This document shows positions 13,701 through 64,000 of a DNA stretch of 64,000 nt, piece after piece. The first letter of the stretch is position 1. Each line of letters starts with the position of its first letter. The stretch comes from Bryopsis sp. KO-2023 (Eukaryota; Chlorophyta; Ulvophyceae; Bryopsidales; Bryopsidaceae), in the NCBI GenBank assembly GCA_030272585.1, contig BSYQ01000011.1, positions 3,968,001-4,032,000 of the forward strand. Reading direction: 5' to 3'. Below the pieces are notes generated by a model. That model was given only the letters and a program-made list of their open reading frames with translations. It was not told the origin of the DNA and did no database searches. Made by a program: the position numbers and the translations under genes.

Positions 13701-14131
13701 GAAAAGACTACCCCAAACATGTGTGGCACAAGCCTTCCCACATTTCGTTCATCTCTTGGAAGCTGCGCGGGCAGTATTTCTGGATGGGGCGAGACGTTGG
13801 GCCATGGACGGTGGGTTTGAACTACAGCAAGAAATTCCCTGTCGAAGTGATGGCCTCTAAGGCTGAAATGGAGGGTAACTACTCTCCGAATGAATTCATT
13901 CCATATGGAGCGATGTTTGGAGCTCCATTGGCGGATGATGGATTAGTCATCAGGAGGAGGGATTACACGTATTCTGAACCCACCACTGAGGGCCAGGGTG
14001 GAATTTCTGGAGCATTGGCTGCCATGGTTGAATATTATGACAAGATGGAAAAACAAGACGATTGCGGTTTGGAATTCGGTTGGGACCATCCCAATGCGCA
14101 ATTTTCCAAAAAGACCATGAAGCAATGCTAG
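10786..14131 (+). CDS. Secreted protein with two Kazal domains fused to a GH9 cellulase-like domain
   Basis: Six exons join in consistent phase: 10786-10861, 11226-11366, 11448-11612, 12049-12187, 12427-12538 and 12779-14131 (about 661 aa). Exon 1 encodes a signal peptide (MKVFCLLLLATVALA). Exon 2 is a Kazal protease-inhibitor domain with CECSKKYKPVCG and TYGNEC. Exon 3 is a second, looser Kazal-like domain with CQCN, YKPVCAGG and CEAECGG, then a Thr/Gly linker. Exons 4-6 are glycoside hydrolase family 9: YDEALHKTLIFYEAQLSG, the RGD block, GYIDELAWAAAWMYKAT, HWGTLRHATNVAF, NYVLGD and YSEPTTEGQGG. The usual GGxYDAGD block reads GGFLEAGG, so the catalytic-base Asp is absent, while the acid Glu (SEPTT) is kept. 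If the donor after 11612 is not used, translation stops at 11710 and yields a 159-aa Kazal-only product. No other signal-peptide exon for GH9 is visible between 11.7 and 12.05 kb. The domain calls are secure; the fusion is inferred from phase. Confidence 0.72.
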
Positions 14132-33852: not shown

Positions 33853-36300
33853 GTCCATCAACGATCCCAGAAATGCATCGAAATAAAAATCAGCGCATGT
33901 ATATGAAATAGATAGGAACCCCCCCAAAAAATAAAAAACCTCTCCCCTTCTTCTTTCCCCACCTTCATGTTTTCCTTTGATCTTGGTTTCTCACTCTTAT
34001 CTGTGATTTTCTCACTCTTTTGTACGTTTTCGAATATCAAGTTTTATTAGCATGGTGCCGAAAAAATTGGCTATTCTAAGCCAAATTCAGTTTGTAGCTC
34101 GACTTGGTTTCCAAAATTGCAGAGAAAAGAACATCCATCTGCTACACCAAATGTTCTCAACGAGAATATAATCCAAATATTCCCAGGGAAGTATTTATCA
34201 GAGGGCAAAATACAACAAGCGTGGCTGCTAATATCCACAGAAAACCCCAAACAGAAGTGCAAAGCCAGTCCTTTACAGCCCAATACATGAAACAAAAATA
34301 TGTCAAGATCAGCTGGACGTTTTCGATACCTGGTTCCATAAACTGGAACTCACTCCCTCCTCTCTAATGAAGCCATTGTTTATTTTTTTTGTTTTTCTTG
34401 TTTTGTTTTGTTTTGTTTTTTTTGTTTGTTTTTTTTTTGTGTCATTTTGATGAAGGGGCAGGATGGAGCCTTGCTTGAAACACTCTATCAAATCCAACTC
34501 CCGATATCGATCCAGCCATAATAATTGAACCAAAATCTAGTAGGTCAACTAGGCCTCAACCCTGAACCCAAGAAATCCACCAAAAACCCCAAAACCAACA
34601 CCCGATTGATTGTCAAGAGTAAAGATCGTTATGTCGATCTTTTTTGCTTGTGTCCGTGGAAATCATGTCACGATATTGAGGAAAAAAAAAAGTTGAAAAG
34701 AAATCGCTTCGCCGGCATGAATAAAATGCCATGCGAAAAACCCTGGTAAAAAAAAAAGAGAAAAGAAAAACCAGAAACAGAATCGACAATTTCAAGCTTG
34801 TTTCTTTTGGAGCTAGAAATTGATGTCAAATCCCCTCGCAGGTAGGAGAAAATTTGACTGCCACACACCTGTGGCGATCGCTAAAACAGTAAATCTAAAA
34901 AAATCCCTGATCTAAACTGAAAAGCTTGAAAACAGAGAAGATAATGATTTTCGAAAGAAAAAGATCAAAAAAACGTCACGCTTGCACATCCTCTGTTGAG
35001 TTTGGCGATTTGCTAATATAAAATTTGAGACAGTAAATTCGAATTCCTTTTTTCTGCGCAAAATCGATAGGTACCCTTGTTATGCAACCAACCCCCTTCC
35101 TTCCAATCCCCCCTCTCCTTAATGCTATTGCTGTCACCCTGCCCCTTTCTAAAAATAACCCCAACAACAACTGCAATTACATAAGCTGGTTCCTTGATCG
35201 GCATAAAATTAACTATTTGATACGGTCAGCATTCAAAGCATCTATTCCCAACGAATTGAATGTTTCTCATTCTCCTGGGAAGCCAGGAACAGTATCGATC
35301 GACTCTGCAAAATCAAGCACGCTGTCCGGTGCAAAATCCAACTCAGGTAGATCAAGTTCGACTTCCTCTGTGTCTGAAATCTCTGGGCCAAACCCAGAAA
35401 AGAACGAAGGTAGAGCAGGGGACTCCACAACTTCTGGTATGTCGGATACTCCAGGCTCCTCGCTTTCTTCCAGTCCGCCGCCACCAAAACTAGGAAGCTG
35501 CAAGGGAGGAAGATCGGGCACAAGGCTGGTTGGATCAGATAAATCAGGATCTGAGGTCAAACTGGCGGGGAAATCTGGCACAGAAGGCTCCTCGCTCTCC
35601 TCCAGTCCACCTCCTGAGAACGGAACCTGTAATGGGGCAAATTCTGGCACAAAGTCAATACCATCCTGTGGACTCGGATCGCCCACCCCACCAGGAATGT
35701 CTTGGACTGCTGGCTCCTCACTTCCCTCCAGACCACCACCCAAAACAGGAAGCTCTAATGGAGGTAGTTCTGGTACTTCAGGCTCCTCACTTCCCTCCAA
35801 ACCGGCACCCAAAAAGGGAATATCCAATGGAGGGAGATCAGGCACAAGCTCATCCGGATCAGCGAATTCTGGGTCAAAAGAAATGTCGACAGGAGTCCCA
35901 GCACCCCCTCCTTCTTCACCACCTCCAGTCTCATCTATGTCAGGGGGCTTTGGTACTGTAAGTTCTGGAAGATCTGGCTCAAAGTCCCCTTCATCAGCAA
36001 TTATTGGATCCACAGAGAATCCCGTTTCATCTATGCCAAGTGAGGACAAAAAGAAAGGTAGGTAAATTAACAGAAAAAAAAAATGCTATCCCATTACGTT
36101 TTCATGAATACGAAAACCTAAAACACACCTTCTGAAGGATTCAAAACATCATCATCTCCACCACTACTTTCACCAGACGACCCAAATTCTGTCGCCTGAA
36201 TGGCACTTGGCTTTTCCTCCACATCATCTCTGGCACCTGGACCACCATATTCTGTCTTTTCCCCACCCTCCGCATCCCGTTTTCCTGTTGCCTTCGGGTC
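33853..36300. repeat. Segmental duplication, copy 2
   Basis: Counterpart of 28298-30650. It contains the 3' flank, last exon and 98-bp intron of the giant repeat gene, and runs into the tandem array. It differs from copy 1 by 126 extra coding bases in the last exon, a short insertion near 35100-35118, and a micro-inversion near 33901-33937. Confidence 0.9.
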
Positions 36301-39300
36301 AGACTCCTGGCCAGGGGATGTTTGATCGGATTCTGGCTTCTCTTCTTCCCCATCCCTGGGTCCTGGACCACCCACATCCGTCGATACCACTCCCTTCGCA
36401 TCCTGTTTTCCCGCTTGAGTTTTTTCCCCATCAGAAGGGGTCTCAGATTCGGTGTCGAGAGAGCCAGCTCCGGTCGCCTTCAGATCAGACTGCTGGCTAG
36501 GGGGTGTCTGATCCACATCTTGATTCTCTCCTCCCCCATCCATGGCTTCTGGACCACCCACATCAATCTTTTCCTCTCCCACTGTTTTTCCCGATGGAGT
36601 TGCATCGCCATCACCTGGGGTTTGCGTATCGGTGCCAGGAGACCCAACTCCGGTCGCCTTCAGATCAGACTGCTGGCTAGGGGGTGTCTGATCCACACCT
36701 TGATTCTCTCCTCCCCCATCCATGGCTTCTGGACCACCCACATCAATCTTTTCCTCTCCCACTGTTTTTCCCGATGGAGTTGCATCGCCATCAGCTGGGG
36801 TTTGCGTATCGGTGCCAGGAGACCCAACTCCGGTCGCCTTCAGATCAGACTGCTGGCTAGGGGGTGTCTGATCCACACCTTGATTCTCTCCTCCCCCATC
36901 CATGGCTTCTGGACCACCCACATCAATCTTTTCCTCTCCCACTGTTTTTCCCGATGGAGTTGCATCGCCATCACCTGGGGTTTGCGAATCGGTGCCAGGA
37001 GATCCAACTCCGGTCGCCTTCAGATCAGACTGCTGGCCAGGGCGTGTTTGATCGGTACCAGGCTTCTCTTCTTTCCCATCCCTGGCTGCTGAACCACCCA
37101 CATCCGTCTTGTCCCCTCCCTCCTCATCCTGTTTTTCTGATGGAGTTTCTTCTCCTTCAGCGGGTGTTTCTGAATCGGTGTCCGGAGACGCAACCCCAAT
37201 CTTGTCCCCTCCCTCCTCATCCTGTTTTTCTGATGGAGTTTCTTCTCCTTCAGCGGGTGTTTCTGAATCGGTGTCCGGAGACGCAACCCCAATCTTGTCC
37301 CCTCCCTCCTCATCCTGTTTTTCTGATGGAGTTTCTTCTCCTTCAGCGGGAGTTTCTGAATCGGTGTCCGGAGACCCCACTCCAGTTGCCTTCAGATCAG
37401 ACTGTTGGCCAGGGCGTGTTTGATCGGTACCAGGCTTCTCTTCTTTCCCATCCCTGGCTGCTGAACCACCCACATCCGTCTTGTCCCCTCCCTCCTCATC
37501 TTGTTTTTCTGATGGAGTTTCTTCCCCTTCAGCGGGAGTTTCTGAATCGGTGTCCGGAGACCTCACTCCAGTTGCCTTCAGGTCAGACTCCTGGCCAGGG
37601 GATGTTTGATCGGATTCTGGCTTCTCTTCTTCCCTATCCCTGGGTCCTGGACCACCCACATCCGTCGATACCACTCCCTTCGCATCCTGTTTTCCCGCTT
37701 GAGTTTTTTCCCCATCAGAAGGGGTCTCAGATTCGGTGTCGAGAGAGCCAGCTCCGGTCGCCTTCAGATCAGACTGCTGGCTAGGGGGTGTCTGATCCAC
37801 ACCTTGATTCTCTCCTCCCCCATCCATGGCTTCTGGACCACCCACATCAATCTTTTCCTCTCCCACTGTTTTTCCCGATGGAGTTGCATCGCCATCAGCT
37901 GGGGTTTGCGAATCGGTGTCCGGCGACCCCACTCCAGTTGCCTTCAGATCAGACTGCTGGCCAGGGCGTGTTTGATCGGTACCAGGCTTCTCTTCTTTCC
38001 CATCCCTGGCTGCTGATCCACCCACATCCGTCTTGTCCCCTCCCTCCTCATCCTGTTTTTCTGTTGGAGTTTCTTCTCCTTCAGCGGGTGTTTCTGAATC
38101 GGTGTCCGGAGACCCCACTCCAGTTGCCTTCAGATCAGACTGTTGGCCAGGGCGTGTTTGATCGGTACCAGGCTTCTCTTCTTTCCCATCCCTGGCTGCT
38201 GAACCACCCACATCCGTCTTGTCCCCTCCCTCCTCATCCTGTTTTTCTGATGGAGTTTCTTCTCCTTCAGCGGGAGTTTCTGATCCGGTGTCCGAAGACC
38301 CAACCTCAATCTTGTCCCCTCCCTCCTCATCCTGTTTTTCTGATGGAGTTTCTTCTCCTTCAGCGGGAGTTTCTGAATCGGTGTCCGGCGACCCCACTCC
38401 AGTTGCCTTCAGATCAGACTGTTGGCCAGGGCGTGTTTGATCGGATTCTGGCTTCTCTTCTTCCCCATCCCTGGGTCCTGGACCACCCACATCCGTCGAT
38501 ACCACTCCCTTCGCATCCTGTTTTCCCGCTTGAGTTTTTTCCCCATCAGAAGGGGTCTCAGATTCGGTGTCGAGAGAGCCCAATCCGGTTGCCTTCAGAT
38601 CAGACTGCTGGCTAGGGGGTGTCTGATCCACATCTTGATTCTCTCCTCCCCCATCCATGGCTTCTGCACCACCCACATCAATCTTTTCCTCTCCCACTGT
38701 TTTTCCCGATGGAGTTGCATCGCCATCAGCTGGGGTTTGCGAATCGGTGTCCGGCGACCCCACTCCAGTAGCCTTCAGATCAGACTGTTGGCCAGGGCGT
38801 GTTTGATCGGTACCAGGCTTCTCTTCTTTCCCATCCCTGGCTGCTGAACCACCCACATCCGTCTTGTCCCCTCCCTCCTCATCCTGTTTTTCTGATGGAG
38901 TTTCTTCCCCTTCAGCGGGTGTTTCTGAATCGGTGTCCGGAGCCGCAACCCCAATCTTGTCCCCTCCCTCCTCATCCTGTTTTTCTGTTGGAGTTTCTTC
39001 TCCTTCAGCGGGTGTTTCTGAATCGGTGTCCGGAGACCCCACTCCAGTTGCCTTCAGGTCAGACTCCTGGCCAGGGGATGTTTGATCGGATTCTGGCTTC
39101 TCTTCTTCCCCATCCCTGGGTCCTGGACCACCCACATCCGTCGATACCACTCCCTTCGCATCCTGTTTTCCCGCTTGAGTTTTTTCCCCATCAGAAGGGG
39201 TCTCAGATTCGGTGTCGAGAGAGCCCAATCCGGTTGCCTTCAGATCAGACTGCTGGCTAGGGGGTGTCTGATCCACACCTTGATTCTCTCCTCCCCCATC

Positions 39301-42300
39301 CATGGCTTCTGGACCACCCACATCAATCTTTTCCTCTCCCACTGTTTTTCCCGATGGAGTTGCATCGCCATCAGCTGGGGTTTGCGAATCGGTGTCCGGC
39401 GACCCCACTCCAGTAGCCTTCAGATCAGACTGTTGGCCAGGGCGTGTTTGATCGGTACCAGGCTTCTCTTCTTTCCCATCCCTGGCTGCTGAACCACCCA
39501 CATCCGTCTTGTCCCCTCCCTCCTCATCTTGTTTTTCTGATGGAGTTTCTTCCCCTTCAGCGGGAGTTTCTGAATCGGTGTCCGGAGACCCCACTCCAGT
39601 TGCCTTCAGGTCAGACTCCTGGCCAGGGGATGTTTGATCGGATTCTGGCTTCTCTTCTTCCCCATCCCTGGGTCCTGGACCACCCACATCCGTCGATACC
39701 ACTCCCTTCGCATCCTGTTTTCCCGCTTGAGTTTTTTCCCCATCAGAAGGGGTCTCAGATTCGGTGTCGAGAGAGCCCAATCCGGTTGCCTTCAGGTCAG
39801 ACTCCTGGCCAGGGGATGTTTGATCGGATTCTGGCTTCTCTTCTTCCCCATCCCTGGGTCCTGGACCACCCACATCCGTCGATACCACTCCCTTCGCATC
39901 CTGATTTCCCGCTTGAGTTTTTTCCCCATCAGAAGGGGTCTCAGATTCGGTGTCGAGAGAGCCCAATCCGGTTGCCTTCAGGTCAGACTCCTGGCCAGGG
40001 GATGTTTGATCGGATTCTGGCTTCTCTTCTTCCCCATCCATGGCTTCTGGACCACCCACATCAATCTTTTCCTCTCCCACTGTTTTTCCCGATGGAGTTG
40101 CATCGCCATCAGCTGGGGTTTGCGAATCGGTGTCCGGCGACCCCACTCCAGTTGCCTTCAGATCAGACTGCTGGCCAGGGCGTGTTTGATCGGTACCAGG
40201 CTTCTCTTCTTTCCCATCCCTGGCTGCTGAACCACCCACATCCGTCTTGTCCCCTCCCTCCTCATCTTGTTTTTCTGATGGAGTTTCTTCCCCTTCAGCG
40301 GGAGTTTCTGAATCGGTGTCCGGAGACCTCACTCCAGTTGCCTTCAGGTCAGACTCCTGGCCAGGGGATGTTTGATCGGATTCTGGCTTCTCTTCTTCCC
40401 TATCCCTGGGTCCTGGACCACCCACATCCGTCGATACCACTCCCTTCGCATCCTGTTTTCCCGCTTGAGTTTTTTCCCCATCAGAAGGGGTCTCAGATTC
40501 GGTGTCGAGAGAGCCAGCTCCGGTCGCCTTCAGATCAGACTGCTGGCTAGGGGGTGTCTGATCCACACCTTGATTCTCTCCTCCCCCATCCATGGCTTCT
40601 GGACCACCCACATCAATCTTTTCCTCTCCCACTGTTTTTCCCGATGGAGTTGCATCGCCATCAGCTGGGGTTTGCGAATCGGTGTCCGGCGACCCCACTC
40701 CAGTTGCCTTCAGATCAGACTGCTGGCCAGGGCGTGTTTGATCGGTACCAGGCTTCTCTTCTTTCCCATCCCTGGCTGCTGATCCACCCACATCCGTCTT
40801 GTCCCCTCCCTCCTCATCCTGTTTTTCTGTTGGAGTTTCTTCTCCTTCAGCGGGTGTTTCTGAATCGGTGTCCGGAGACCCCACTCCAGTTGCCTTCAGA
40901 TCAGACTGTTGGCCAGGGCGTGTTTGATCGGTACCAGGCTTCTCTTCTTTCCCATCCCTGGCTGCTGAACCACCCACATCCGTCTTGTCCCCTCCCTCCT
41001 CATCCTGTTTTTCTGATGGAGTTTCTTCTCCTTCAGCGGGAGTTTCTGATCCGGTGTCCGAAGACCCAACCTCAATCTTGTCCCCTCCCTCCTCATCCTG
41101 TTTTTCTGATGGAGTTTCTTCTCCTTCAGCGGGAGTTTCTGAATCGGTGTCCGGCGACCCCACTCCAGTTGCCTTCAGATCAGACTGTTGGCCAGGGCGT
41201 GTTTGATCGGATTCTGGCTTCTCTTCTTCCCCATCCCTGGGTCCTGGACCACCCACATCCGTCGATACCACTCCCTTCGCATCCTGTTTTCCCGCTTGAG
41301 TTTTTTCCCCATCAGAAGGGGTCTCAGATTCGGTGTCGAGAGAGCCCAATCCGGTTGCCTTCAGATCAGACTGTTGGCCAGGGCGTGTTTGATCGGTACC
41401 AGGCTTCTCTTCTTTCCCATCCCTGGCTGCTGAACCACCCACATCCGTCTTGTCCCCTCCCTCCTCATCCTGTTTTTCTGATGGAGTTTCTTCCCCTTCA
41501 GCGGGTGTTTCTGAATCGGTGTCCGGAGCCGCAACCCCAATCTTGTCCCCTCCCTCCTCATCCTGTTTTTCTGTTGGAGTTTCTTCTCCTTCAGCGGGTG
41601 TTTCTGAATCGGTGTCCGGAGACCCCACTCCAGTTGCCTTCAGGTCAGACTCCTGGCCAGGGGATGTTTGATCGGATTCTGGCTTCTCTTCTTCCCCATC
41701 CCTGGGTCCTGGACCACCCACATCCGTCGATACCACTCCCTTCGCATCCTGTTTTCCCGCTTGAGTTTTTTCCCCATCAGAAGGGGTCTCAGATTCGGTG
41801 TCGAGAGAGCCAGCTCCGGTTGCCTTCAGATCAGACTGCTGGCTAGGGGGTGTCTGATCCACACCTTGATTCTCTCCTCCCCCATCCATGGCTTCTGGAC
41901 CACCCACATCAATCTTTTCCTCTCCCACTGTTTTTCCCGATGGAGTTGCATCGCCATCAGCTGGGGTTTGCGAATCGGTGTCCGGCGACCCCACTCCAGT
42001 TGCCTTCAGATCAGACTGCTGGCCAGGGCGTGTTTGATCGGTACCAGGCTTCTCTTCTTTCCCATCCCTGGCTGCTGATCCACCCACATCCGTCTTGTCC
42101 CCTCCCTCCTCATCCTGTTTTTCTGTTGGAGTTTCTTCTCCTTCAGCGGGTGTTTCTGAATCGGTGTCCGGAGACCCCACTCCAGTTGCCTTCAGGTCAG
42201 ACTCCTGGCCAGGGGATGTTTGATCGGATTCTGGCTTCTCTTCTTCCCCATCCCTGGGTCCTGGACCATCCACATCCGTCGATACCACTCCCTTCGCATC

Positions 42301-45300
42301 CTGTTTTCCCGCTTGAGTTTTTTCCCCATCAGAAGGGGTCTCAGATTCGGTGTCGAGAGAGCCCAATCCGGTTGCCTTCAGATCAGACTGCTGGCTAGGG
42401 GGTGTCTGATCCACACCTTGATTCTCTCCTCCCCCATCCATGGCTTCTGGACCACCCACATCAATCTTTTCCTCTCCCACTGTTTTTCCCGATGGAGTTG
42501 CATCGCCATCAGCTGGGGTTTGCGAATCGGTGTCCGGCGACCCCACTCCAGTTGCCTTCAGATCAGACTGTTGGCCAGGGCGTGTTTGATCGGTACCAGG
42601 CTTCTCTTCTTTCCCATCCCTGGCTGCTGAACCACCCACATCCGTCTTGTCCCCTCCCTCCTCATCCTGTTTTTCTGATGGAGTTTCTTCTCCTTCAGCG
42701 GGAGTTTCTGAATCGGTGTCCGGCGACCCCACTCCAGTTGCCTTCAGATCAGACTGTTGGCCAGGGCGTGTTTGATCGGATTCTGGCTTCTCTTCTTCCC
42801 CATCCCTGGGTCCTGGACCACCCACATCCGTCGATACCACTCCCTTCGCATCCTGATTTCCCGCTTGAGTTTTTTCCCCATCAGAAGGGGTCTCAGATTC
42901 GGTGTCGAGAGAGCCCAATCCGGTTGCCTTCAGGTCAGACTCCTGGCCAGGGGATGTTTGATCGGATTCTGGCTTCTCTTCTTCCCCATCCCTGGGTCCT
43001 GGACCACCCACATCCGTCGATACCACTCCCTTCGCATCCTGTTTTCCCGCTTGAGTTTTTTCCCCATCAGAAGGGGTCTCAGATTCGGTGTCGAGAGAGC
43101 CCAATCCGGTTGCCTTCAGGTCAGACTCCTGGCCAGGGGATGTTTGATCGGATTCTGGCTTCTCTTCTTCCCCATCCCTGGGTCCTGGACCACCCACATC
43201 CGTCGATACCACTCCCTTCGCATCCTGATTTCCCGCTTGAGTTTTTTCCCCATCAGAAGGGGTCTCAGATTTGGTGTCGAGAGAGCCCAATCCGGTTGCC
43301 TTCAGGTCAGACTCCTGGCCAGGGGATGTTTGATCGGATTCTGGCTTCTCTTCTTCCCCATCCCTGGGTCCTGGACCACCCACATCCGTCGATACCACTC
43401 CCTTCGCATCCTGTTTTCCCGCTTGAGTTTTTTCCCCATCAGAAGGGGTCTCAGATTCGGTGTCGAGAGAGCCCAATCCGGTTGCCTTCAGGTCAGACTC
43501 CTGGCCAGGGGATGTTTGATCGGATTCTGGCTTCTCTTCTTCCCCATCCCTGGGTCCTGGACCACCCACATCCGTCGATATCACTCCCTTCGCATCCTGT
43601 TTTCCCGCTTGAGTTTTTTCCCCATCAGAAGGGGTCTCAGATTCGGTGTCGAGAGAGCCAGCTCCGGTCGCCTTCAGATCAGACTGCTGGCTAGGGGGTG
43701 TCTGATCCACACCTTGATTCTCTCCTCCCCCATCCATGGCTTCTGGACCACCCACATCAATCTTTTCCTCTCCCACTGTTTTTCCCGATGGAGTTGCATC
43801 GCCATCAGCTGGGGTTTGCGAATCGGTGTCCGGCGACCCCACTCCAGTTGCCTTCAGATCAGACTGCTGGCCAGGGCGTGTTTGATCGGTACCAGGCTTC
43901 TCTTCTTTCCCATCCCTGGCTGCTGATCCACCCACATCCGTCTTGTCCCCTCCCTCCTCATCCTGTTTTTCTGTTGGAGTTTCTTCTCCTTCAGCGGGTG
44001 TTTCTGAATCGGTGTCCGGAGACCCCACTCCAGTTGCCTTCAGATCAGACTGTTGGCCAGGGCGTGTTTGATCGGTACCAGGCTTCTCTTCTTTCCCATC
44101 CCTGGCTGCTGAACCACCCACATCCGTCTTGTCCCCTCCCTCCTCATCCTGTTTTTCTGATGGAGTTTCTTCTCCTTCAGCGGGAGTTTCTGATCCGGTG
44201 TCCGAAGACCCAACCTCAATCTTGTCCCCTCCCTCCTCATCCTGTTTTTCTGATGGAGTTTCTTCTCCTTCAGCGGGAGTTTCTGAATCGGTGTCCGGCG
44301 ACCCCACTCCAGTTGCCTTCAGATCAGACTGTTGGCCAGGGCGTGTTTGATCGGATTCTGGCTTCTCTTCTTCCCCATCCCTGGGTCCTGGACCACCCAC
44401 ATCCGTCGATACCACTCCCTTCGCATCCTGTTTTCCCGCTTGAGTTTTTTCCCCATCAGAAGGGGTCTCAGATTCGGTGTCGAGAGAGCCCAATCCGGTT
44501 GCCTTCAGATCAGACTGCTGGCTAGGGGGTGTCTGATCCACATCTTGATTCTCTCCTCCCCCATCCATGGCTTCTGCACCACCCACATCAATCTTTTCCT
44601 CTCCCACTGTTTTTCCCGATGGAGTTGCATCGCCATCAGCTGGGGTTTGCGAATCGGTGTCCGGCGACCCCACTCCAGTAGCCTTCAGATCAGACTGTTG
44701 GCCAGGGCGTGTTTGATCGGTACCAGGCTTCTCTTCTTTCCCATCCCTGGCTGCTGAACCACCCACATCCGTCTTGTCCCCTCCCTCCTCATCCTGTTTT
44801 TCTGATGGAGTTTCTTCCCCTTCAGCGGGTGTTTCTGAATCGGTGTCCGGAGCCGCAACCCCAATCTTGTCCCCTCCCTCCTCATCCTGTTTTTCTGTTG
44901 GAGTTTCTTCTCCTTCAGCGGGTGTTTCTGAATCGGTGTCCGGAGACCCCACTCCAGTTGCCTTCAGGTCAGACTCCTGGCCAGGGGATGTTTGATCGGA
45001 TTCTGGCTTCTCTTCTTCCCCATCCCTGGGTCCTGGACCACCCACATCCGTCGATACCACTCCCTTCGCATCCTGTTTTCCCGCTTGAGTTTTTTCCCCA
45101 TCAGAAGGGGTCTCAGATTCGGTGTCGAGAGAGCCAGCTCCGGTTGCCTTCAGATCAGACTGCTGGCTAGGGGGTGTCTGATCCACACCTTGATTCTCTC
45201 CTCCCCCATCCATGGCTTCTGGACCACCCACATCAATCTTTTCCTCTCCCACTGTTTTTCCCGATGGAGTTGCATCGCCATCAGCTGGGGTTTGCGAATC

Positions 45301-51300: not shown

Positions 51301-54300
51301 CTCAGATTCGGTGTCGAGAGAGCCAGCTCCGGTCGCCTTCAGATCAGACTGCTGGCTAGGGGGTGTCTGATCCACACCTTGATTCTCTCCTCCCCCATCC
51401 ATGGCTTCTGGACCACCCACATCAATCTTTTCCTCTCCCACTGTTTTTCCCGATGGAGTTGCATCGCCATCACCTGGGGTTTGCGAATCGGTGCCAGGAG
51501 ATCCAACTCCGGTCGCCTTCAGATCAGACTGCTGGCCAGGGCGTGTTTGATCGGTACCAGGCTTCTCTTCTTTTCCATCCCTGGCTGCTGAACCACCCAC
51601 ATCCGTCTTGTCCCCTCCCTCCTCATCCTGTTTTTCTGATGGAGTTTCTTCTCCTTCAGCGGGTGTTTCTGAATCGGTGTCCGGAGACCCCACTCCAGTT
51701 GCCTTCAGATCAGACTGCTGGCTAGGGGGTGTCTGATCCACACCTTGATTCTCTCCTCCCCCATCCATGGCTTCTGGACCACCCACATCAATCTTTTCCT
51801 CTCCCACTGTTTTTCCCGATGGAGTTGCATCGCCATCAGCTGGGGTTTGCGAATCGGTGTCCGGCGACCCCACTCCAGTTGCCTTCAGATCAGACTGCTG
51901 GCCAGGGCGTGTTTGATCGGTACCAGGCTTCTCTTCTTTCCCATCCCTGGCTGCTGATCCACCCACATCCGTCTTGTCCCCTCCCTCCTCATCCTGTTTT
52001 TCTGTTGGAGTTTCTTCTCCTTCAGCGGGTGTTTCTGAATCGGTGTCCGGAGACCCCACTCCAGTTGCCTTCAGGTCAGACTCCTGGCCAGGGGATGTTT
52101 GATCGGATTCTGGCTTCTCTTCTTCCCCATCCCTGGGTCCTGGACCACCCACATCCGTCGATACCACTCCCTTCGCATCCTGTTTTCCCGCTTGAGTTTT
52201 TTCCCCATCAGAAGGGGTCTCAGATTCGGTGTCGAGAGAGCCCAATCCGGTTGCCTTCAGGTCAGACTCCTGGCCAGGGGATGTTTGATCGGATTCTGGC
52301 TTCTCTTCTTCCCCATCCCTGGGTCCTGGACCACCCACATCCGTCGATACCACTCCCTTCGCATCCTGTTTTCCCGCTTGAGTTTTTTCCCCATCAGAAG
52401 GGGTCTCAGATTTGGTGTCGAGAGAGCCCAATCCGGTTGCCTTCAGGTCAGACTCCTGGCCAGGGGATGTTTGATCGGATTCTGGCTTCTCTTCTTCCCC
52501 ATCCCTGGGTCCTGGACCACCCACATCCGTCGATACCACTCCCTTCGCATCCTGTTTTCCCGCTTGAGTTTTTTCCCCATCAGAAGGGGTCTCAGATTCG
52601 GTGTCGAGAGAGCCCAATCCGGTTGCCTTCAGGTCAGACTCCTGGCCAGGGGATGTTTGATCGGATTCTGGCTTCTCTTCTTCCCCATCCCTGGGTCCTG
52701 GACCACCCACATCCGTCGATATCACTCCCTTCGCATCCTGTTTTCCCGCTTGAGTTTTTTCCCCATCAGAAGGGGTCTCAGATTCGGTGTCGAGAGAGCC
52801 AGCTCCGGTCGCCTTCAGATCAGACTGCTGGCTAGGGGGTGTCTGATCCACACCTTGATTCTCTCCTCCCCCATCCATGGCTTCTGGACCACCCACATCA
52901 ATCTTTTCCTCTCCCACTGTTTTTCCCGATGGAGTTGCATCGCCATCACCTGGGGTTTGCGAATCGGTGCCAGGAGATCCAACTCCGGTCGCCTTCAGAT
53001 CAGACTGCTGGCCAGGGCGTGTTTGATCGGTACCAGGCTTCTCTTCTTTTCCATCCCTGGCTGCTGAACCACCCACATCCGTCTTGTCCCCTCCCTCCTC
53101 ATCCTGTTTTTCTGATGGAGTTTCTTCTCCTTCAGCGGGTGTTTCTGAATCGGTGTCCGGAGACCCCACTCCAGTTGCCTTCAGATCAGACTGCTGGCTA
53201 GGGGGTGTCTGATCCACACCTTGATTCTCTCCTCCCCCATCCATGGCTTCTGGACCACCCACATCAATCTTTTCCTCTCCCACTGTTTTTCCCGATGGAG
53301 TTGCATCGCCATCACCTGGGGTTTGCGAATCGGTGCCAGGAGATCCAACTCCGGTCGCCTTCAGATCAGACTGCTGGCCAGGGCGTGTTTGATCGGTACC
53401 AGGCTTCTCTTCTTTCCCATCCCTGGCTGCTGAACCACCCACATCCGTCTTGTCCCCTCCCTCCTCATCCTGTTTTTCTGATGGAGTTTCTTCTCCTTCA
53501 GCGGGTGTTTCTGAATCGGTGTCCGGAGACCCCACTCCAGTTGCCTTCAGGTCAGACTCCTGGCCAGGGGATGTTTGATCGGATTCTGGCTTCTCTTCTT
53601 CCCCATCCCTGGGTCCTGGACCACCCACATCCGTCGATACCACTCCCTTCGCATCCTGTTTTCCCGCTTGAGTTTTTTCCCCATCAGAAGGGGTCTCAGA
53701 TTTGGTGTCGAGAGAGCCCAATCCGGTTGCCTTCAGGTCAGACTCCTGGCCAGGGGATGTTTGATCGGATTCTGGCTTCTCTTCTTCCCCATCCCTGGGT
53801 CCTGGACCACCCACATCCGTCGATACCACTCCCTTCGCATCCTGTTTTCCCGCTTGAGTTTTTTCCCCATCAGAAGGGGTCTCAGATTCGGTGTCGAGAG
53901 AGCCCAATCCGGTTGCCTTCAGGTCAGACTCCTGGCCAGGGGATGTTTGATCGGATTCTGGCTTCTCTTCTTCCCTATCCCTGGGTCCTGGACCACCCAC
54001 ATCCGTCGATACCACTCCCTTCGCATCCTGTTTTCCCGCTTGAGTTTTTTCCCCATCAGAAGGGGTCTCAGATTCGGTGTCGAGAGAGCCAGCTCCGGTC
54101 GCCTTCAGATCAGACTGCTGGCTAGGGGGTGTCTGATCCACACCTTGATTCTCTCCTCCCCCATCCATGGCTTCTGGACCACCCACATCAATCTTTTCCT
54201 CTCCCACTGTTTTTCCCGATGGAGTTGCATCGCCATCAGCTGGGGTTTGCGAATCGGTGTCCGGCGACCCCACTCCAGTTGCCTTCAGATCAGACTGCTG

Positions 54301-57300
54301 GCCAGGGCGTGTTTGATCGGTACCAGGCTTCTCTTCTTTCCCATCCCTGGCTGCTGATCCACCCACATCCGTCTTGTCCCCTCCCTCCTCATCCTGTTTT
54401 TCTGTTGGAGTTTCTTCTCCTTCAGCGGGTGTTTCTGAATCGGTGTCCGGAGACCCCACTCCAGTTGCCTTCAGATCAGACTGTTGGCCAGGGCGTGTTT
54501 GATCGGTACCAGGCTTCTCTTCTTTCCCATCCCTGGCTGCTGAACCACCCACATCCGTCTTGTCCCCTCCCTCCTCATCCTGTTTTTCTGATGGAGTTTC
54601 TTCTCCTTCAGCGGGAGTTTCTGATCCGGTGTCCGAAGACCCAACCTCAATCTTGTCCCCTCCCTCCTCATCCTGTTTTTCTGATGGAGTTTCTTCTCCT
54701 TCAGCGGGAGTTTCTGAATCGGTGTCCGGCGACCCCACTCCAGTTGCCTTCAGATCAGACTGTTGGCCAGGGCGTGTTTGATCGGATTCTGGCTTCTCTT
54801 CTTCCCCATCCCTGGGTCCTGGACCACCCACATCCGTCGATACCACTCCCTTCGCATCCTGTTTTCCCGCTTGAGTTTTTTCCCCATCAGAAGGGGTCTC
54901 AGATTCGGTGTCGAGAGAGCCCAATCCGGTTGCCTTCAGATCAGACTGCTGGCTAGGGGGTGTCTGATCCACATCTTGATTCTCTCCTCCCCCATCCATG
55001 GCTTCTGCACCACCCACATCAATCTTTTCCTCTCCCACTGTTTTTCCCGATGGAGTTGCATCGCCATCAGCTGGGGTTTGCGAATCGGTGTCCGGCGACC
55101 CCACTCCAGTAGCCTTCAGATCAGACTGTTGGCCAGGGCGTGTTTGATCGGTACCAGGCTTCTCTTCTTTCCCATCCCTGGCTGCTGAACCACCCACATC
55201 CGTCTTGTCCCCTCCCTCCTCATCCTGTTTTTCTGATGGAGTTTCTTCCCCTTCAGCGGGTGTTTCTGAATCGGTGTCCGGAGCCGCAACCCCAATCTTG
55301 TCCCCTCCCTCCTCATCCTGTTTTTCTGTTGGAGTTTCTTCTCCTTCAGCGGGTGTTTCTGAATCGGTGTCCGGAGACCCCACTCCAGTTGCCTTCAGGT
55401 CAGACTCCTGGCCAGGGGATGTTTGATCGGATTCTGGCTTCTCTTCTTCCCCATCCCTGGGTCCTGGACCACCCACATCCGTCGATACCACTCCCTTCGC
55501 ATCCTGTTTTCCCGCTTGAGTTTTTTCCCCATCAGAAGGGGTCTCAGATTCGGTGTCGAGAGAGCCAGCTCCGGTTGCCTTCAGATCAGACTGCTGGCTA
55601 GGGGGTGTCTGATCCACACCTTGATTCTCTCCTCCCCCATCCATGGCTTCTGGACCACCCACATCAATCTTTTCCTCTCCCACTGTTTTTCCCGATGGAG
55701 TTGCATCGCCATCAGCTGGGGTTTGCGAATCGGTGTCCGGCGACCCCACTCCAGTTGCCTTCAGATCAGACTGCTGGCCAGGGCGTGTTTGATCGGTACC
55801 AGGCTTCTCTTCTTTCCCATCCCTGGCTGCTGATCCACCCACATCCGTCTTGTCCCCTCCCTCCTCATCCTGTTTTTCTGTTGGAGTTTCTTCTCCTTCA
55901 GCGGGTGTTTCTGAATCGGTGTCCGGAGACCCCACTCCAGTTGCCTTCAGGTCAGACTCCTGGCCAGGGGATGTTTGATCGGATTCTGGCTTCTCTTCTT
56001 CCCCATCCCTGGGTCCTGGACCACCCACATCCGTCGATACCACTCCCTTCGCATCCTGTTTTCCCGCTTGAGTTTTTTCCCCATCAGAAGGGGTCTCAGA
56101 TTCGGTGTCGAGAGAGCCCAATCCGGTTGCCTTCAGGTCAGACTCCTGGCCAGGGGATGTTTGATCGGATTCTGGCTTCTCTTCTTCCCCATCCCTGGGT
56201 CCTGGACCACCCACATCCGTCGATACCACTCCCTTCGCATCCTGTTTTCCCGCTTGAGTTTTTTCCCCATCAGAAGGGGTCTCAGATTTGGTGTCGAGAG
56301 AGCCCAATCCGGTTGCCTTCAGGTCAGACTCCTGGCCAGGGGATGTTTGATCGGATTCTGGCTTCTCTTCGTCCCCATCCCTGGGTCCTGGACCACCCAC
56401 ATCCGTCGATACCACTCCCTTCGCATCCTGTTTTCCCGCTTGAGTTTTTTCCCCATCAGAAGGGGTCTCAGATTCGGTGTCGAGAGAGCCCAATCCGGTT
56501 GCCTTCAGGTCAGACTCCTGGCCAGGGGATGTTTGATCGGATTCTGGCTTCTCTTCTTCCCCATCCCTGGGTCCTGGACCACCCACATCCGTCGATATCA
56601 CTCCCTTCGCATCCTGTTTTCCCGCTTGAGTTTTTTCCCCATCAGAAGGGGTCTCAGATTCGGTGTCGAGAGAGCCAGCTCCGGTCGCCTTCAGATCAGA
56701 CTGCTGGCTAGGGGGTGTCTGATCCACACCTTGATTCTCTCCTCCCCCATCCATGGCTTCTGGACCACCCACATCAATCTTTTCCTCTCCCACTGTTTTT
56801 CCCGATGGAGTTGCATCGCCATCACCTGGGGTTTGCGAATCGGTGCCAGGAGATCCAACTCCGGTCGCCTTCAGATCAGACTGCTGGCCAGGGCGTGTTT
56901 GATCGGTACCAGGCTTCTCTTCTTTTCCATCCCTGGCTGCTGAACCACCCACATCCGTCTTGTCCCCTCCCTCCTCATCCTGTTTTTCTGATGGAGTTTC
57001 TTCTCCTTCAGCGGGTGTTTCTGAATCGGTGTCCGGAGACCCCACTCCAGTTGCCTTCAGATCAGACTGCTGGCTAGGGGGTGTCTGATCCACACCTTGA
57101 TTCTCTCCTCCCCCATCCATGGCTTCTGGACCACCCACATCAATCTTTTCCTCTCCCACTGTTTTTCCCGATGGAGTTGCATCGCCATCACCTGGGGTTT
57201 GCGAATCGGTGTCCGGCGACCCCACTCCAGTTGCCTTCAGATCAGACTGCTGGCCAGGGCGTGTTTGATCGGTACCAGGCTTCTCTTCTTTCCCATCCCT

Positions 57301-60300
57301 GGCTGCTGATCCACCCACATCCGTCTTGTCCCCTCCCTCCTCATCCTGTTTTTCTGTTGGAGTTTCTTCTCCTTCAGCGGGTGTTTCTGAATCGGTGTCC
57401 GGAGACCCCACTCCAGTTGCCTTCAGGTCAGACTCCTGGCCAGGGGATGTTTGATCGGATTCTGGCTTCTCTTCTTCCCCATCCCTGGGTCCTGGACCAC
57501 CCACATCCGTCGATACCACTCCCTTCGCATCCTGTTTTCCCGCTTGAGTTTTTTCCCCATCAGAAGGGGTCTCAGATTCGGTGTCGAGAGAGCCCAATCC
57601 GGTTGCCTTCAGGTCAGACTCCTGGCCAGGGGATGTTTGATCGGATTCTGGCTTCTCTTCGTCCCCATCCCTGGGTCCTGGACCACCCACATCCGTCGAT
57701 ACCACTCCCTTCGCATCCTGTTTTCCCGCTTGAGTTTTTTCCCCATCAGAAGGGGTCTCAGATTCGGTGTCGAGAGAGCCCAATCCGGTTGCCTTCAGGT
57801 CAGACTCCTGGCCAGGGGATGTTTGATCGGATTCTGGCTTCTCTTCTTCCCCATCCCTGGGTCCTGGACCACCCACATCCGTCGATACCACTCCCTTCGC
57901 ATCCTGTTTTCCCGCTTGAGTTTTTTCCCCATCAGAAGGGGTCTCAGATTTGGTGTCGAGAGAGCCCAATCCGGTTGCCTTCAGGTCAGACTCCTGGCCA
58001 GGGGATGTTTGATCGGATTCTGGCTTCTCTTCGTCCCCATCCCTGGGTCCTGGACCACCCACATCCGTCGATACCACTCCCTTCGCATCCTGTTTTCCCG
58101 CTTGAGTTTTTTCCCCATCAGAAGGGGTCTCAGATTCGGTGTCGAGAGAGCCCAATCCGGTTGCCTTCAGGTCAGACTCCTGGCCAGGGGATGTTTGATC
58201 GGATTCTGGCTTCTCTTCTTCCCCATCCCTGGGTCCTGGACCACCCACATCCGTCGATACCACTCCCTTCGCATCCTGTTTTCCCGCTTGAGTTTTTTCC
58301 CCATCAGAAGGGGTCTCAGATTCGGTGTCGAGAGAGCCAGCTCCGGTCGCCTTCAGATCAGACTGCTGGCTAGGGGGTGTCTGATCCACACCTTGATTCT
58401 CTCCTCCCCCATCCATGGCTTCTGGACCACCCACATCAATCTTTTCCTCTCCCACTGTTTTTCCCGATGGAGTTGCATCGCCATCAGCTGGGGTTTGCGA
58501 ATCGGTGTCCGGCGACCCCACTCCAGTTGCCTTCAGATCAGACTGCTGGCCAGGGCGTGTTTGATCGGTACCAGGCTTCTCTTCTTTCCCATCCCTGGCT
58601 GCTGATCCACCCACATCCGTCTTGTCCCCTCCCTCCTCATCCTGTTTTTCTGTTGGAGTTTCTTCTCCTTCAGCGGGTGTTTCTGAATCGGTGTCCGGAG
58701 ACCCCACTCCAGTTGCCTTCAGATCAGACTGTTGGCCAGGGCGTGTTTGATCGGTACCAGGCTTCTCTTCTTTCCCATCCCTGGCTGCTGAACCACCCAC
58801 ATCCGTCTTGTCCCCTCCCTCCTCATCCTGTTTTTCTGATGGAGTTTCTTCTCCTTCAGCGGGAGTTTCTGATCCGGTGTCCGAAGACCCAACCTCAATC
58901 TTGTCCCCTCCCTCCTCATCCTGTTTTTCTGATGGAGTTTCTTCTCCTTCAGCGGGAGTTTCTGAATCGGTGTCCGGCGACCCCACTCCAGTTGCCTTCA
59001 GATCAGACTGTTGGCCAGGGCGTGTTTGATCGGATTCTGGCTTCTCTTCTTCCCCATCCCTGGGTCCTGGACCACCCACATCCGTCGATACCACTCCCTT
59101 CGCATCCTGTTTTCCCGCTTGAGTTTTTTCCCCATCAGAAGGGGTCTCAGATTCGGTGTCGAGAGAGCCCAATCCGGTTGCCTTCAGATCAGACTGCTGG
59201 CTAGGGGGTGTCTGATCCACATCTTGATTCTCTCCTCCCCCATCCATGGCTTCTGCACCACCCACATCAATCTTTTCCTCTCCCACTGTTTTTCCCGATG
59301 GAGTTGCATCGCCATCAGCTGGGGTTTGCGAATCGGTGTCCGGCGACCCCACTCCAGTAGCCTTCAGATCAGACTGTTGGCCAGGGCGTGTTTGATCGGT
59401 ACCAGGCTTCTCTTCTTTCCCATCCCTGGCTGCTGAACCACCCACATCCGTCTTGTCCCCTCCCTCCTCATCCTGTTTTTCTGATGGAGTTTCTTCCCCT
59501 TCAGCGGGTGTTTCTGAATCGGTGTCCGGAGCCGCAACCCCAATCTTGTCCCCTCCCTCCTCATCCTGTTTTTCTGTTGGAGTTTCTTCTCCTTCAGCGG
59601 GTGTTTCTGAATCGGTGTCCGGAGACCCCACTCCAGTTGCCTTCAGGTCAGACTCCTGGCCAGGGGATGTTTGATCGGATTCTGGCTTCTCTTCTTCCCC
59701 ATCCCTGGGTCCTGGACCATCCACATCCGTCGATACCACTCCCTTCGCATCCTGTTTTCCCGCTTGAGTTTTTTCCCCATCAGAAGGGGTCTCAGATTCG
59801 GTGTCGAGAGAGCCAGCTCCGGTCGCCTTCAGATCAGACTGCTGGCTAGGGGGTGTCTGATCCACACCTTGATTCTCTCCTCCCCCATCCATGGCTTCTG
59901 GACCACCCACATCAATCTTTTCCTCTCCCACTGTTTTTCCCGATGGAGTTGCATCGCCATCAGCTGGGGTTTGCGAATCGGTGTCCGGCGACCCCACTCC
60001 AGTTGCCTTCAGATCAGACTGCTGGCCAGGGCGTGTTTGATCGGTACCAGGCTTCTCTTCTTTCCCATCCCTGGCTGCTGATCCACCCACATCCGTCTTG
60101 TCCCCTCCCTCCTCATCCTGTTTTTCTGTTGGAGTTTCTTCTCCTTCAGCGGGTGTTTCTGAATCGGTGTCCGGAGACCCCACTCCAGTTGCCTTCAGAT
60201 CAGACTGTTGGCCAGGGCGTGTTTGATCGGTACCAGGCTTCTCTTCTTTCCCATCCCTGGCTGCTGAACCACCCACATCCGTCTTGTCCCCTCCCTCCTC

Positions 60301-63300
60301 ATCCTGTTTTTCTGATGGAGTTTCTTCTCCTTCAGCGGGAGTTTCTGAATCGGTGTCCGGCGACCCCACTCCAGTTGCCTTCAGATCAGACTGTTGGCCA
60401 GGGCGTGTTTGATCGGTACCAGGCTTCTCTTCTTTCCCATCCCTGGCTGCTGAACCACCCACATCCGTCTTGTCCCCTCCCTCCTCATCCTGTTTTTCTG
60501 ATGGAGTTTCTTCTCCTTCAGCGGGTGTTTCTGAATCGGTGTCCGGCGACCCCACTCCAGTTGCCTTCAGATCAGACTGTTGGCCAGGGCGTGTTTGATC
60601 GGTACCAGGCTTCTCTTCTTTCCCATCCCTGGCTGCTGAACCACCCACATCTGTCTTGTCCCCTCCCTCCTCATCCTGTTTTTCTGATGGAGTTTCTTCT
60701 CCTTCAGCGGGTGTTTCTGAATCGGTGTCCGGCGACCCCACTCCAGTTGCCTTCAGATCAGACTGTTGGCCAGGGCGTGTTTGATCGGTACCAGGCTTCT
60801 CTTCTTTCCCATCCCTGGCTGCTGAACCACCCACATCCGTCTTGTCCCCTCCCTCCTTATCCTGTTTTTCTGATGGAGTTTCTTCTCCTTCAGCGGGAGT
60901 TTCTGATCCGGTGTCCGAAGACCCAACCTCAATCTTGTCCCCTCCCTCCTCATCCTGTTTTTCTGATGGAGTTTCTTCCCCTTCAGCGGGAGTTTCTGAA
61001 TCGGTGTCCGGAGACCCCACTCCAGTTGCCTTCAGATCAGACTCCTGGCCAGGGGATGTTTGATCGGATTCTGGCTTCTCTTCTTCCCCATCCCTGGGTC
61101 CTGGACCACCCACATCCGTCGATACCACTCCCTTCGCATCCTGTTTTCCCGCTTGAGTTTTTTCCCCATCAGAAGGGGTCTCAGATTCGGTGTCGAGAGA
61201 GCCCAATCCGGTTGCCTTCAGATCAGACTGTTGGCCAGGGCGTGTTTGATCCACATCTTGATTCTCTCCTCCCCCATCCATGGCTTCTGCACCACCCACA
61301 TCAATCTTTTCCTCTCCCACTGTTTTTCCCGATGGAGTTGCATCGCCATCAGCTGGGGTTTGCGAATCGGTGTCCGGCGACCCCACTCCAGTTGCCTTCA
61401 GATCAGACTGTTGGCCAGCGCGTGTTTGATCCACATCTTGATTCTCTCCTCCCCCATCCATGGCTTCTGGACCACCCACATCAATCTTTTCCTCTCCCAC
61501 TGTTTTTCCCGAAGGAGTTGCATCGCCATCACCTGGGGTTTGCGAATCGGTGCCAGGAGACCCAACTCCGGTCGCCTTCAGATCAGACTGCTGGCTAGGG
61601 GGTGTATGATCCACATCTTGATTCTCTCCTCCCCCATCCATGGCTTCTGCACCACCCACATCAATCTTTTCCTCTCCCACTGTTTTTCCCGATGGAGTTG
61701 CATCGCCATCAGCTGGGGTTTGCGAATCGGTGTCCGGCGACCCCACTCCAGTTGCCATCAGATCAGACTGTTGGCCAGCGCGTGTTTGATCCACATCTTG
61801 ATTCTCTCCTCCCCCATCCATGGCTTCTGCACCACCCACATCAATCTTTTCCTCTCCCACTGTTTTTCCCGATGGAGTTGCATCGCCATCAGCTGGGGTT
61901 TGCGAATCGGTGTCCGGCGACCCCACTCCAGTTGCCTTCAGATCAGACTGTTGGCCAGCGCGTGTTTGATCCACATCTTGATTCTCTCCTCCCCCATCCA
62001 TGGCTTCTGGACCACCCACATCAATCTTTTCCTCTCCCACTGTTTTTCCCGATGGAGTTGCATCGCCATCAGCTGGGGTTTGCGAATCGGTGCCAGGAGA
62101 CCCAACTCCGGTCGCCTTCAGATCAGACTGCTGGCTAGGGGGTGTCTGATCCACATCTTGATTCTCTCCTCCCCCATCCATGGCTTCTGCACCACCCACA
62201 TCAATCTTTTCCTCTCCCACTGTTTTTCCCGATGGAGTTGCATCGCCATCAGCTGGGGTTTGCGAATCGGTGTCCGGCGACCCCACTCCAGTAGCCTTCA
62301 GATCAGACTGTTGGCCAGGGCGTGTTTGATCGGTACCAGGCTTCTCTTCTTTCCCATCCCTGGCTGCTGAACCACCCACATCAATCTTTTCCTCTCCCAC
62401 TGTTTTTCCCGATGGAGTTGCATCGCCATCAGCTGGGGTTTGCGAATCGGTGTCCGGCGACCCCACTCCAGTTGCCTTCAGGTCAGACTCCTGGCCAGGG
62501 CGTGTTTGATCGGTACCAGGCTTCTCTTCTTTCCCATCCCTGGCTGCTGAACCACCCACATCCGTCTTGTCCCCTCCCTCCTCATCCTGTTTTTCTGATG
62601 GACTTTCTTCTCCTTCAGCGGGAGTTTCTGAATCGGTGTCCGGCGACCCCACTCCAGTTGCCTTCAGGTCAGACTCCTGGCCAGGGGATGTTTGATCGGA
62701 TTCTGGCTTCTCTTCTTCCCCATCCCTGGGTCCTGGACCACCCACATCCGTCGATACCACTCCCTTCGCATCCTGTTTTCCCGCTTGAGTTTTTTCCCCA
62801 TCAGAAGGGGTCTCAGATTCGGTGTCGAGAGAGCCCAATCCGGTTGCCTTCAGGTCAGACTCCTGGCCAGGGGATGTTTGATCGGATTCTGGCTTCTCTT
62901 CTTCCCCATCCCTGGGTCCTGGACCACCCACATCCGTCGATATCACTCCCTTCGCATCCTGTTTTCCCGCTTGAGTTTTTTCCCCATCAGAAGAGGTCTC
63001 AGATTCGGTGTCGAGAGAGCCAGCTCCGGTCGCCTTCAGATCAGACTGCTGGCTAGGGGGTGTCTGATCCACATCTTGATTCTCTCCTCCCCCATCCATG
63101 GCTTCTGGACCACCCACATCAATTTTTTCCTCTCCCACTGTTTTTCCTGATGGAGTTGCATCGCCATCAGCTGGGGTTTGCGAATCGGTGTCCGGCGACC
63201 CAACTCCAGTTGCCTTCAGATCAGACTGTTGGCCAGGGCGTGTTTGATCGGTACCAGGCTTCTCTTCTTTCCCATCCCTGGCTGCTGAACCACCCACATC

Positions 63301-64000
63301 CGTCTTGTCCCCTCCCTCCTCATCCTGTTTTTCTGATGGAGTTTCTTCTCCTTCAGCGGGTGTTTCTGAATCGGTGTCCGGAGACCCCACTCCAGTTGCC
63401 TTCAGATCAGACTGTTGGCCAGGGCGTGTTTGATCGGTACCAGGCTTCTCTTCTTTCCCATCCCTGGCTGCTGAACCACCCACATCCGTCTTGTCCCCTC
63501 CCTCCTCATCCTGTTTTTCTGATGGAGTTTCTTCTCCTTCAGCGGGAGTTTCTGAATCGGTGTCCGGCGACCCCACTCCAGTTGCCTTCAGATCAGACTG
63601 TTGGCCAGGGCGTGTTTGATCGGTACCAGGCTTCTCTTCTTTCCCATCCCTGGCTGCTGAATCACCCACATCCGTCTTGTCCCCTCCCTCCTCATCCTGT
63701 TTTTCTGATGGAGTTTCTTCTCCTTCAGCGGGTGTTTCTGAATCGGTGTCCGGAGACCCCACTCCAGTTGCCTTCAGATCAGACTGTTGGCCAGGGCGTG
63801 TTTGATCGGTACCAGGCTTCTCTTCTTTCCCATCCCTGGCTGCTGAACCACCCACATCCGTCTTGTCCCCTCCCTCCTCATCCTGTTTTTCTGATGGAGT
63901 TTCTTCTCCTTCAGCGGGAGTTTCTGAATCGGTGTCCGGAGACCCCACTCCAGTTGCCTTCAGATCAGACTGTTGGCCAGGGCGTGTTTGATCGGTACCA
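35267..64000 (-). CDS. Giant tandem-repeat acidic disordered protein (5' end beyond window)
   Basis: Two exons are visible: the last, 36030-35267 (253 aa, TGA stop), and the penultimate, 36129 to beyond 64000, joined by a 98-bp GT-AG intron in phase 1. The penultimate exon is one open frame of at least 27.8 kb (over 9,270 codons) made of about 150 units of 60-62 aa. A typical unit has 17 acidic and 7 basic residues, no Cys, no aromatic residue and one Leu, so the protein should be disordered and strongly negative (about -10 per unit). Each unit ends in SDLKATG. Ser/Thr followed by acidic residues (DTDSETPAEGEE) offers many potential CK2-type sites. After the array come KRDAEGG and an acidic Ser/Gly segment. 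The last exon encodes a second, Pro/Leu/acidic repeat domain with cores like PPLELPVLGGGLEGSEEP. The start and any N-terminal domain lie outside the window. No known family is recognised; function unknown. Confidence 0.85.
36284..64000 (-). repeat. Coding minisatellite array with higher-order repeats
   Basis: Three unit types alternate. A (186 bp) carries SETPAEGEETPSEKQDEEGG and GSAARDGKEEKPGTDQTRPG. B (180 bp) carries SQTPADGDATPSGKTVGEEK and GPEAMDGGGENQGVDQ. C (186 bp) carries SETPSDGEKTQAGKQDAKG and GPGPRDGEEEKPESDQTSPG. Extra 93-bp half units are inserted: a DKIEVGSSDTG type near 38.2, 41.0, 44.1, 47.3, 49.2, 54.6, 58.8 and 60.8 kb, a DKIGVAAPDT type near 38.9, 41.5, 44.8, 49.9, 55.2 and 59.5 kb, and two DKIGVASPDT copies near 37.2 kb. 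These markers reveal blocks of about 2-6 kb that recur nearly unchanged. The array continues past the window edge. Confidence 0.95.

Follow-up and report, generated by a model that had tools for sequence, protein, structure and literature searches.

A predicted secreted polyanionic repeat protein of about 1 MDa, encoded mostly by one 30,508-bp exon, in the green alga Bryopsis sp. KO-2023

The window analysed here, a stretch of 64,000 nucleotides of the Bryopsis sp. KO-2023 assembly (C11:3968001-4032000), carries on its minus strand a reading frame that is still open at the window edge. This raises the question of whether such a frame belongs to a working gene and, if so, what kind of protein the gene specifies. 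The searches covered the whole genome (91.1 Mb in 28 contigs). The features discussed below are collected in Table 1.

Table 1. Features of the giant gene, its partial duplicate, its neighbours and a dispersed element (window numbering, carried on past position 64,000, unless a contig is named)
Feature	Position	Strand	Length	Remarks
Exon 1 (predicted signal peptide)	67806-67704, outside window	minus	103 bp
Exon 2 (8-Cys module)	67282-67209, outside window	minus	74 bp
Exon 3 (8-Cys module)	66998-66789, outside window	minus	210 bp
Three 5' introns		minus	421, 210, 152 bp	all GT-AG by sequence
Exon 4 (repeat exon)	36129..64000 in window, to 66636 (C11:4034636)	minus	30,508 bp total
Degenerate last unit (SDPKATGKRDAEGG...) and linker to donor site	36129..36303	minus
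Intron 4	36031..36128	minus	98 bp	GT-AG, phase 1, by sequence
Exon 5 (acidic Pro/Leu-rich C-terminal domain)	35267..36030	minus	764 bp	stop TGA
Truncated tandem duplicate of the 3' end	29684..30650	minus		one unit, intron, exon 5 shorter by 42 codons
OPR/RAP-like helical repeat protein	7615-9705			by eye
Glycosyl hydrolase family 9	12761-14131			E 2e-69
BTB-SPRY protein	15474-16997
ORANGE-like plastid zinc-finger protein	25825-26865			by eye
Ends of dispersed element (L003-L008)	C13:2880405, C4:1324911, C5:6692084, C7:494074, C2:8163746, C2:7716140

An initial annotation of the window had reported more than 9,270 open codons, in a single exon of at least 27.8 kb made of about 150 stop-free units, each of a length divisible by three, and all of this held. 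From position 36118 the frame stays open for 9,293 codons up to the window edge and continues in the assembly to position 66642 in window numbering, which brings it to 10,174 codons without a stop; the gene model gives the exon its full length of 30,508 bp. From base composition, about 431 stops per frame are expected over this exon; the other five frames contain 170, 550, 43, 172 and 259, the coding frame 0. Unit lengths, taken between in-frame anchors, were 186 bp for 98 of the 155 units, 180 bp for 41, 279 bp for 15 and 372 bp for one, a degenerate last unit closing the exon. Since all 156 anchors share the coding frame, with 0 in the other two forward frames, the array is without frame change. 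The window holds 142 units entirely, and one straddles its edge.

The units fall into five classes: 58 C (62 aa), 41 B (60 aa), 33 A, 16 A+ (fifteen of 93 aa and one of 124 aa) and 7 D. From the 5' end of the gene, the seven D units come first, followed by A, A+, B and C units intermingled. The 156 anchored units comprise 46 distinct sequences, and the unit boundary SDLKATG is conserved. A genome-wide query with one unit gave 136 listed matches, every one of them within the array on C11, so that among the matches listed the array is found in one place only. Its internal history is visible in the repeats themselves: the longest exact repeat measures 3,279 bp, 31.8% of the 1,000-base words in the ORF are found more than once and a nine-unit block, bCabCaAbC, is present in five copies. 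The D units, found only at the 5' end, show the greatest divergence at synonymous sites (dS of 0.43 for A-D versus 0.26 for A-B and 0.29 for A-C), a pattern that homogenisation of an array predicts for its edge. Growth and homogenisation would have proceeded by unequal crossing-over or conversion involving both single units and multi-unit blocks.

The predicted gene consists of five exons joined by four GT-AG introns in consistent phase. The junction proposed earlier at 36030/36129 was recovered as one of these, on sequence grounds only. Both 8-Cys modules contain an intron, in matching positions, and exon 4 opens with the second half of the second module. Nine codons 5' of the ATG there is an in-frame stop. 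Exon 5 amounts to 253 whole codons plus a split one and contains repeats of the type VPDLPPLxLPxxGGGLEESEEP. The stops used in the gene fit the standard genetic code described for Bryopsidales (PMC2984419).

By the gene model the protein has 10,552 residues, a mass of 1.066 MDa and a pI of 4.05; as the frame closes 2.6 kb past the window edge, the size foreseen from the window alone (close to or above 1 MDa) becomes about 1.07 MDa. The description of an almost pure repeat protein, acidic and devoid of Cys and aromatics, stood for the array and had to be amended for the rest. In the window ORF, G, D and E account for 16.6, 12.4 and 12.2% of residues, F, H and Y for 0.01-0.02% each, and Cys and Trp are absent by composition count. 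The protein is not pure repeat, because a signal peptide, Cys modules and a C-terminal exon, the first two missed by the initial annotation, flank the 155-unit array: all 16 Cys of the protein lie in the two modules of the N-terminal head (residues 44-161), and its aromatics sit in head and tail. On the Kyte-Doolittle scale, the N-terminal segment is of signal-peptide type (maximum 15-residue hydropathy of 2.67 at residue 13) and no 15-residue window exceeds 1.6 past residue 60; by hydropathy, therefore, the protein looks like a secreted one, with a signal peptide and no other span. The suggestion of a disordered polyelectrolyte was borne out by composition: with a net charge of -0.153 per residue and a charge-hydropathy value of 0.346 against a boundary of 0.468, the array would lie well inside the disordered region, as an intrinsically disordered polyanion. 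Ser and Thr together make about 19% of residues and Pro 8.4%. The array offers 2.8 SP/TP per 62 aa, as potential O-glycosylation sites only, and no N-glycosylation sequon; no PPP run occurs anywhere in the protein. A scan of the CDS for GTGAGT, GTAAGT and [AC]AGGT[AG]AG found none, and one acceptor-like tract; the 10,057 array residues contain no dibasic site. As the units are near copies, these absences represent few independent events.

Selection on the frame had been argued from the unbroken units. To count variants, each distinct mutation was scored once against its class consensus, over the five classes and with the observed transition bias, excluding the degenerate unit at the end and the one of 124 aa. 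The 99 mutations were 37 synonymous, 62 nonsynonymous and 0 nonsense, versus 27.0, 68.4 and 3.6 expected (P = 0.03). By class, the synonymous share was 9/15 for A, 7/16 for A+, 16/40 for B, 3/17 for C and 2/11 for D, with an excess in A, A+ and B and none in the C and D units. On the opposite strand one frame gave P = 0.036 (the others 0.09 to 0.999), so that this test alone fails to single out the coding frame; the argument is thus weaker than first stated, and the unit variants seem to support coding weakly. Within classes, pairwise pN/pS rose from 0.12 (A) through 0.43 (B), 0.44 (A+) and 0.72 (C) to 1.49 (D). Between unit types dN/dS was 0.29-0.87, and much of the array may therefore be loosely constrained.

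Better evidence comes from exon 5, which differs from its tandem duplicate by 13 synonymous and 9 nonsynonymous changes (dS 0.089, dN 0.019, ratio 0.21; Fisher P = 4e-4). The coding status of the gene thus appears well supported, with what looks like a loose constraint on sequence inside the array. A non-coding satellite was rejected on the open frame, the splice sites and the constraint on exon 5.

The tandem duplicate shows few nonsynonymous differences from exon 5 and has a possible splice acceptor upstream; it may be a small working paralogue. Other pieces of the gene are scattered in the genome. The search with last-exon pieces listed 37 matches; some of these belong together as a single copy, and the gene accounts for another. 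A dispersed element that starts with CACTACGAG at 6/6 ends read, a terminus which we take to be CACTA-like, contains degraded pieces resembling the last exon and the unit boundary, and this transposon therefore seems to have captured part of the gene. Degraded copies of the 5' exons were seen at C7:251281 (L030) and C6:5896531 (L033), 85.6% alike across 1.1 kb, with a stop within the match at C6:5896531 and another in a second match at C7:251441; both apparently sit in another dispersed repeat.

The head places the gene in a family. Its Cys module follows the pattern CxC[TS]D...C..Q...GKC...WM...GYC..TCGRCxC, for which the genome gave, at E <= 1, 20 matches, of which two are the giant gene and others are partly degraded or weak. 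We inspected 11 short loci at seven other places, with more sequence examined for two, and judged exon joins by eye. In seven aligned modules, 13 of 51 columns are invariant. Nothing in Pfam or NCBIfam scored over cut-off with the module. ShK/ShKT (PF01549) was matched by one module in seven (E = 1, 10.4 bits versus a cut-off of 20.9) and by neither of the giant gene's own two; the likeness to ShK in PDB sequences was non-significant (E = 0.27). At one relative (L050, C4, ~1779.3-1771.9 kb, minus strand), a stretch of 1,693 open codons comes after the modules and contains a 189-bp (63-aa) unit, also acidic and aromatic-poor, in 22.7 copies. Homology of these units to those of the giant gene, for which BLASTP gave an uncorrected E of ~1e-45, was rejected: 13-41% of 1,000 shuffled controls reach the unit score, so the likeness was put down to composition. 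At C4:2711.7-2718 kb (L034, L051), modules, a poly-Pro stretch and other repeats precede fasciclin domains (E 7.6e-10 and 2.5e-6, in L051), and at L040 a module adjoins a partial fasciclin match (E 4.2e-4, 21 bits versus a cut-off of 22). By this fasciclin association only, the family would act at the cell surface. The family would then be one of Cys-capped surface proteins, whose repetitive tails seem to have been replaced over evolution, and the giant protein the largest found among them.

The units had been said to belong to no named family, and they indeed matched nothing in Pfam, NCBIfam, PDB sequences, viral and prokaryote contigs or plasmids. A viral or prokaryotic origin of the units was rejected: 45 pattern matches in viral_contigs and 125 in genome_contigs yielded no confirmed relative, and plasmids gave no match, in a search that reaches close relatives only. 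The C-terminal tail likewise had no match in the libraries searched, including Pfam and NCBIfam, and no Pfam domain was found in the protein pieces scanned. No such Bryopsis protein was found in the literature covered, most subscription journals lying outside that search.

The kind of gene, which the initial annotation did not recognise any more than the family of the Cys module, is a known one. The Balbiani ring genes of Chironomus (BR1, BR2.1, BR2.2 and BR6), which specify a secretory silk, have secreted products and introns crowded at both ends. The algal introns are also crowded at the ends, three 5' and one 3', placing the 30,508-bp exon between small exons of 103, 74 and 210 bp on one side and 764 bp on the other. 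The likeness to the insect silk genes is in architecture alone, their unit sequences and patterning being unlike those of the alga. The mucins MUC16, MUC4 and MUC5B combine a giant Ser/Thr/Pro-rich tandem-repeat exon with Cys-rich ends in a secreted or surface polyanion; by contrast, the algal protein owes its charge to Asp and Glu in the chain, with the Ser and Thr content given above. In plants and green algae, Pro-rich repeat proteins and HRGPs are likewise secreted and made of biased tandem repeats, whereas the algal units are mostly of 60-62 aa, acidic, with 8% Pro. The pattern of HRGPs and extensins (SPn with n > 2, Pro/Hyp-rich) was not found, given the modest Pro content and the lack of PPP. 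Among published systems, the Balbiani ring genes are described as ~40 kb long and interrupted by four introns, their ~35-kb repetitive centre being unrecovered in the assembly concerned (PMC4192438). Halomucin of Haloquadratum walsbyi is a protein of 9,159 aa and 927 kDa with a signal sequence, shown to be extracellular and proposed to serve in hydration (PMC4378361); it resembles the algal protein in size and signal sequence but is archaeal, and was compared by description only. Chlorophytes are reported to have large heterogeneous SPn proteins, generally without Tyr (PMC3149072), and a trend has been reported for longer internal exons to carry more tandem repeats and disorder (PMC12457776). 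Units and tail thus appear to be without counterpart in the libraries searched, while the kind (Balbiani ring, mucin, halomucin) is already known.

Head, secretion signal and long acidic tail together fit an extracellular polyanion, and we consider it probable that the gene encodes a secreted giant polyanionic repeat protein, grown by unequal crossing-over and with ends open to crosslinking, of the wall, mucilage or wound plug. The chain would enter the ER, and its Cys modules would form disulphides on folding; through them it would be bound or crosslinked to partners in the wall or matrix. The Ser/Thr/Pro sites may carry O-glycans, and the repeat region, hydrated and extended, would bind cations and act as a spacer or form a gel. 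Taking 0.36 nm per residue, we estimate a contour length of the order of 3.8 micrometres. Selection would preserve the frame, the charge and the composition, and the precise sequence less so. The matrix in question could be the wall, the surface mucilage or the plug that seals a wounded giant cell; the role named here is a guess from the biology, the wound plug being attractive because such algae must seal a single giant cell.

Other readings bear on the length of the array and on the life of the gene. An assembly artefact that gives the array a wrong size or a false expansion, the true exon being much shorter, draws on the long exact repeats (to 3,279 bp) and the 31.8% of repeated 1,000-base words, but sits badly with a frame intact through 155 units, an irregular block order and 46 distinct sequences; moreover, ordinary long reads exceed the exact repeats in length. 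For the KO-2023 culture, read N50 values of 33.7 kb (CLR) and 16.2 kb (HiFi) are given (PMC12509668). We regard this artefact as quite unlikely, although the exact array length could be off by some blocks. The gene might also be decaying or unexpressed, a coding minisatellite under little selection whose frame is kept by homogenisation spreading stop-free units. Units divisible by three do stay open for free upon duplication, the C and D units lack a synonymous excess and degraded copies of the gene's ends exist elsewhere. What makes such decay improbable is the absence of frame change and of nonsense among the 99 distinct variants (3.6 expected), the purifying selection on exon 5, and splice sites, signal peptide and Cys modules that are all intact as read from the DNA.

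Where the protein goes and whether it stays whole can be questioned too. A signal peptide would also fit transport to the vacuole, and the product might be stored there or in wound bodies, to be freed only when the cell is injured and then to form a gel or plug. Bryopsis is described as having a multistep wound response and as forming lectin-aggregated protoplasts, in an article whose reference list includes titles on a 'wound-healing protein in Bryopsis hypnoides' and 'wound plug formation in green algae' (PMC3252328). The fasciclin-linked relatives of the module point instead to the cell surface, and we hold such a store to be rather unlikely. The regular units and their conserved SDLKATG boundary could also suggest a polyprotein processed into repeated short peptides; with 0 dibasic sites in the array, a count that speaks to dibasic signals only, we give this very little credence. 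A secreted extracellular polyanion is thus the reading that we retain.

The rest of the window and genome yielded some separate observations. Four neighbouring genes are listed in Table 1. About 1.8 kb upstream of the giant gene, at ~69560-70500 in window numbering (C11:4037.6-4038.5 kb), dUTPase-like and reverse-transcriptase-like stretches were recognised by eye, the latter as the tail of an element. The LHCII of this genome, queried as a composite of two gene copies, equals Bry-Lhcb1 (8hlv), presumably from B. corticulans, at 223/226 residues (516 bits); the other high rows were 9jzr, 9vfj, 9k7v, 7wlm and 8hpd, some of them siphonaxanthin LHCII, followed by 6kac (384 bits). The match agrees with a Bryopsis source, and replaced a chlorarachniophyte or streptophyte identity entertained at first. 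The chlorophyll a/b-binding family gave 107 genome matches counted exon by exon, and several near-identical LHCII copies were present among the six read.

A broader proposal, which we put forward tentatively and hold at rather less than even, concerns siphonous green algae as a group: the 8-Cys head would be kept while the disordered tail is repeatedly swapped for unrelated acidic repeats of 60-63 aa, with length, charge and frame selected and sequence not, and one member of ~1 MDa, encoded mostly by one exon, would be a gel or plug polymer for the giant single cell. The giant gene would represent another independent origin of a Balbiani-ring-like or mucin-like giant, this time in a green alga, and it is a candidate for the protein part of the wall, mucilage or wound plug in single-celled macroalgae. 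The occurrence of the same Cys module with unrelated repeat tails asks whether selection sees the sequence of such tails or only their length, charge and frame.
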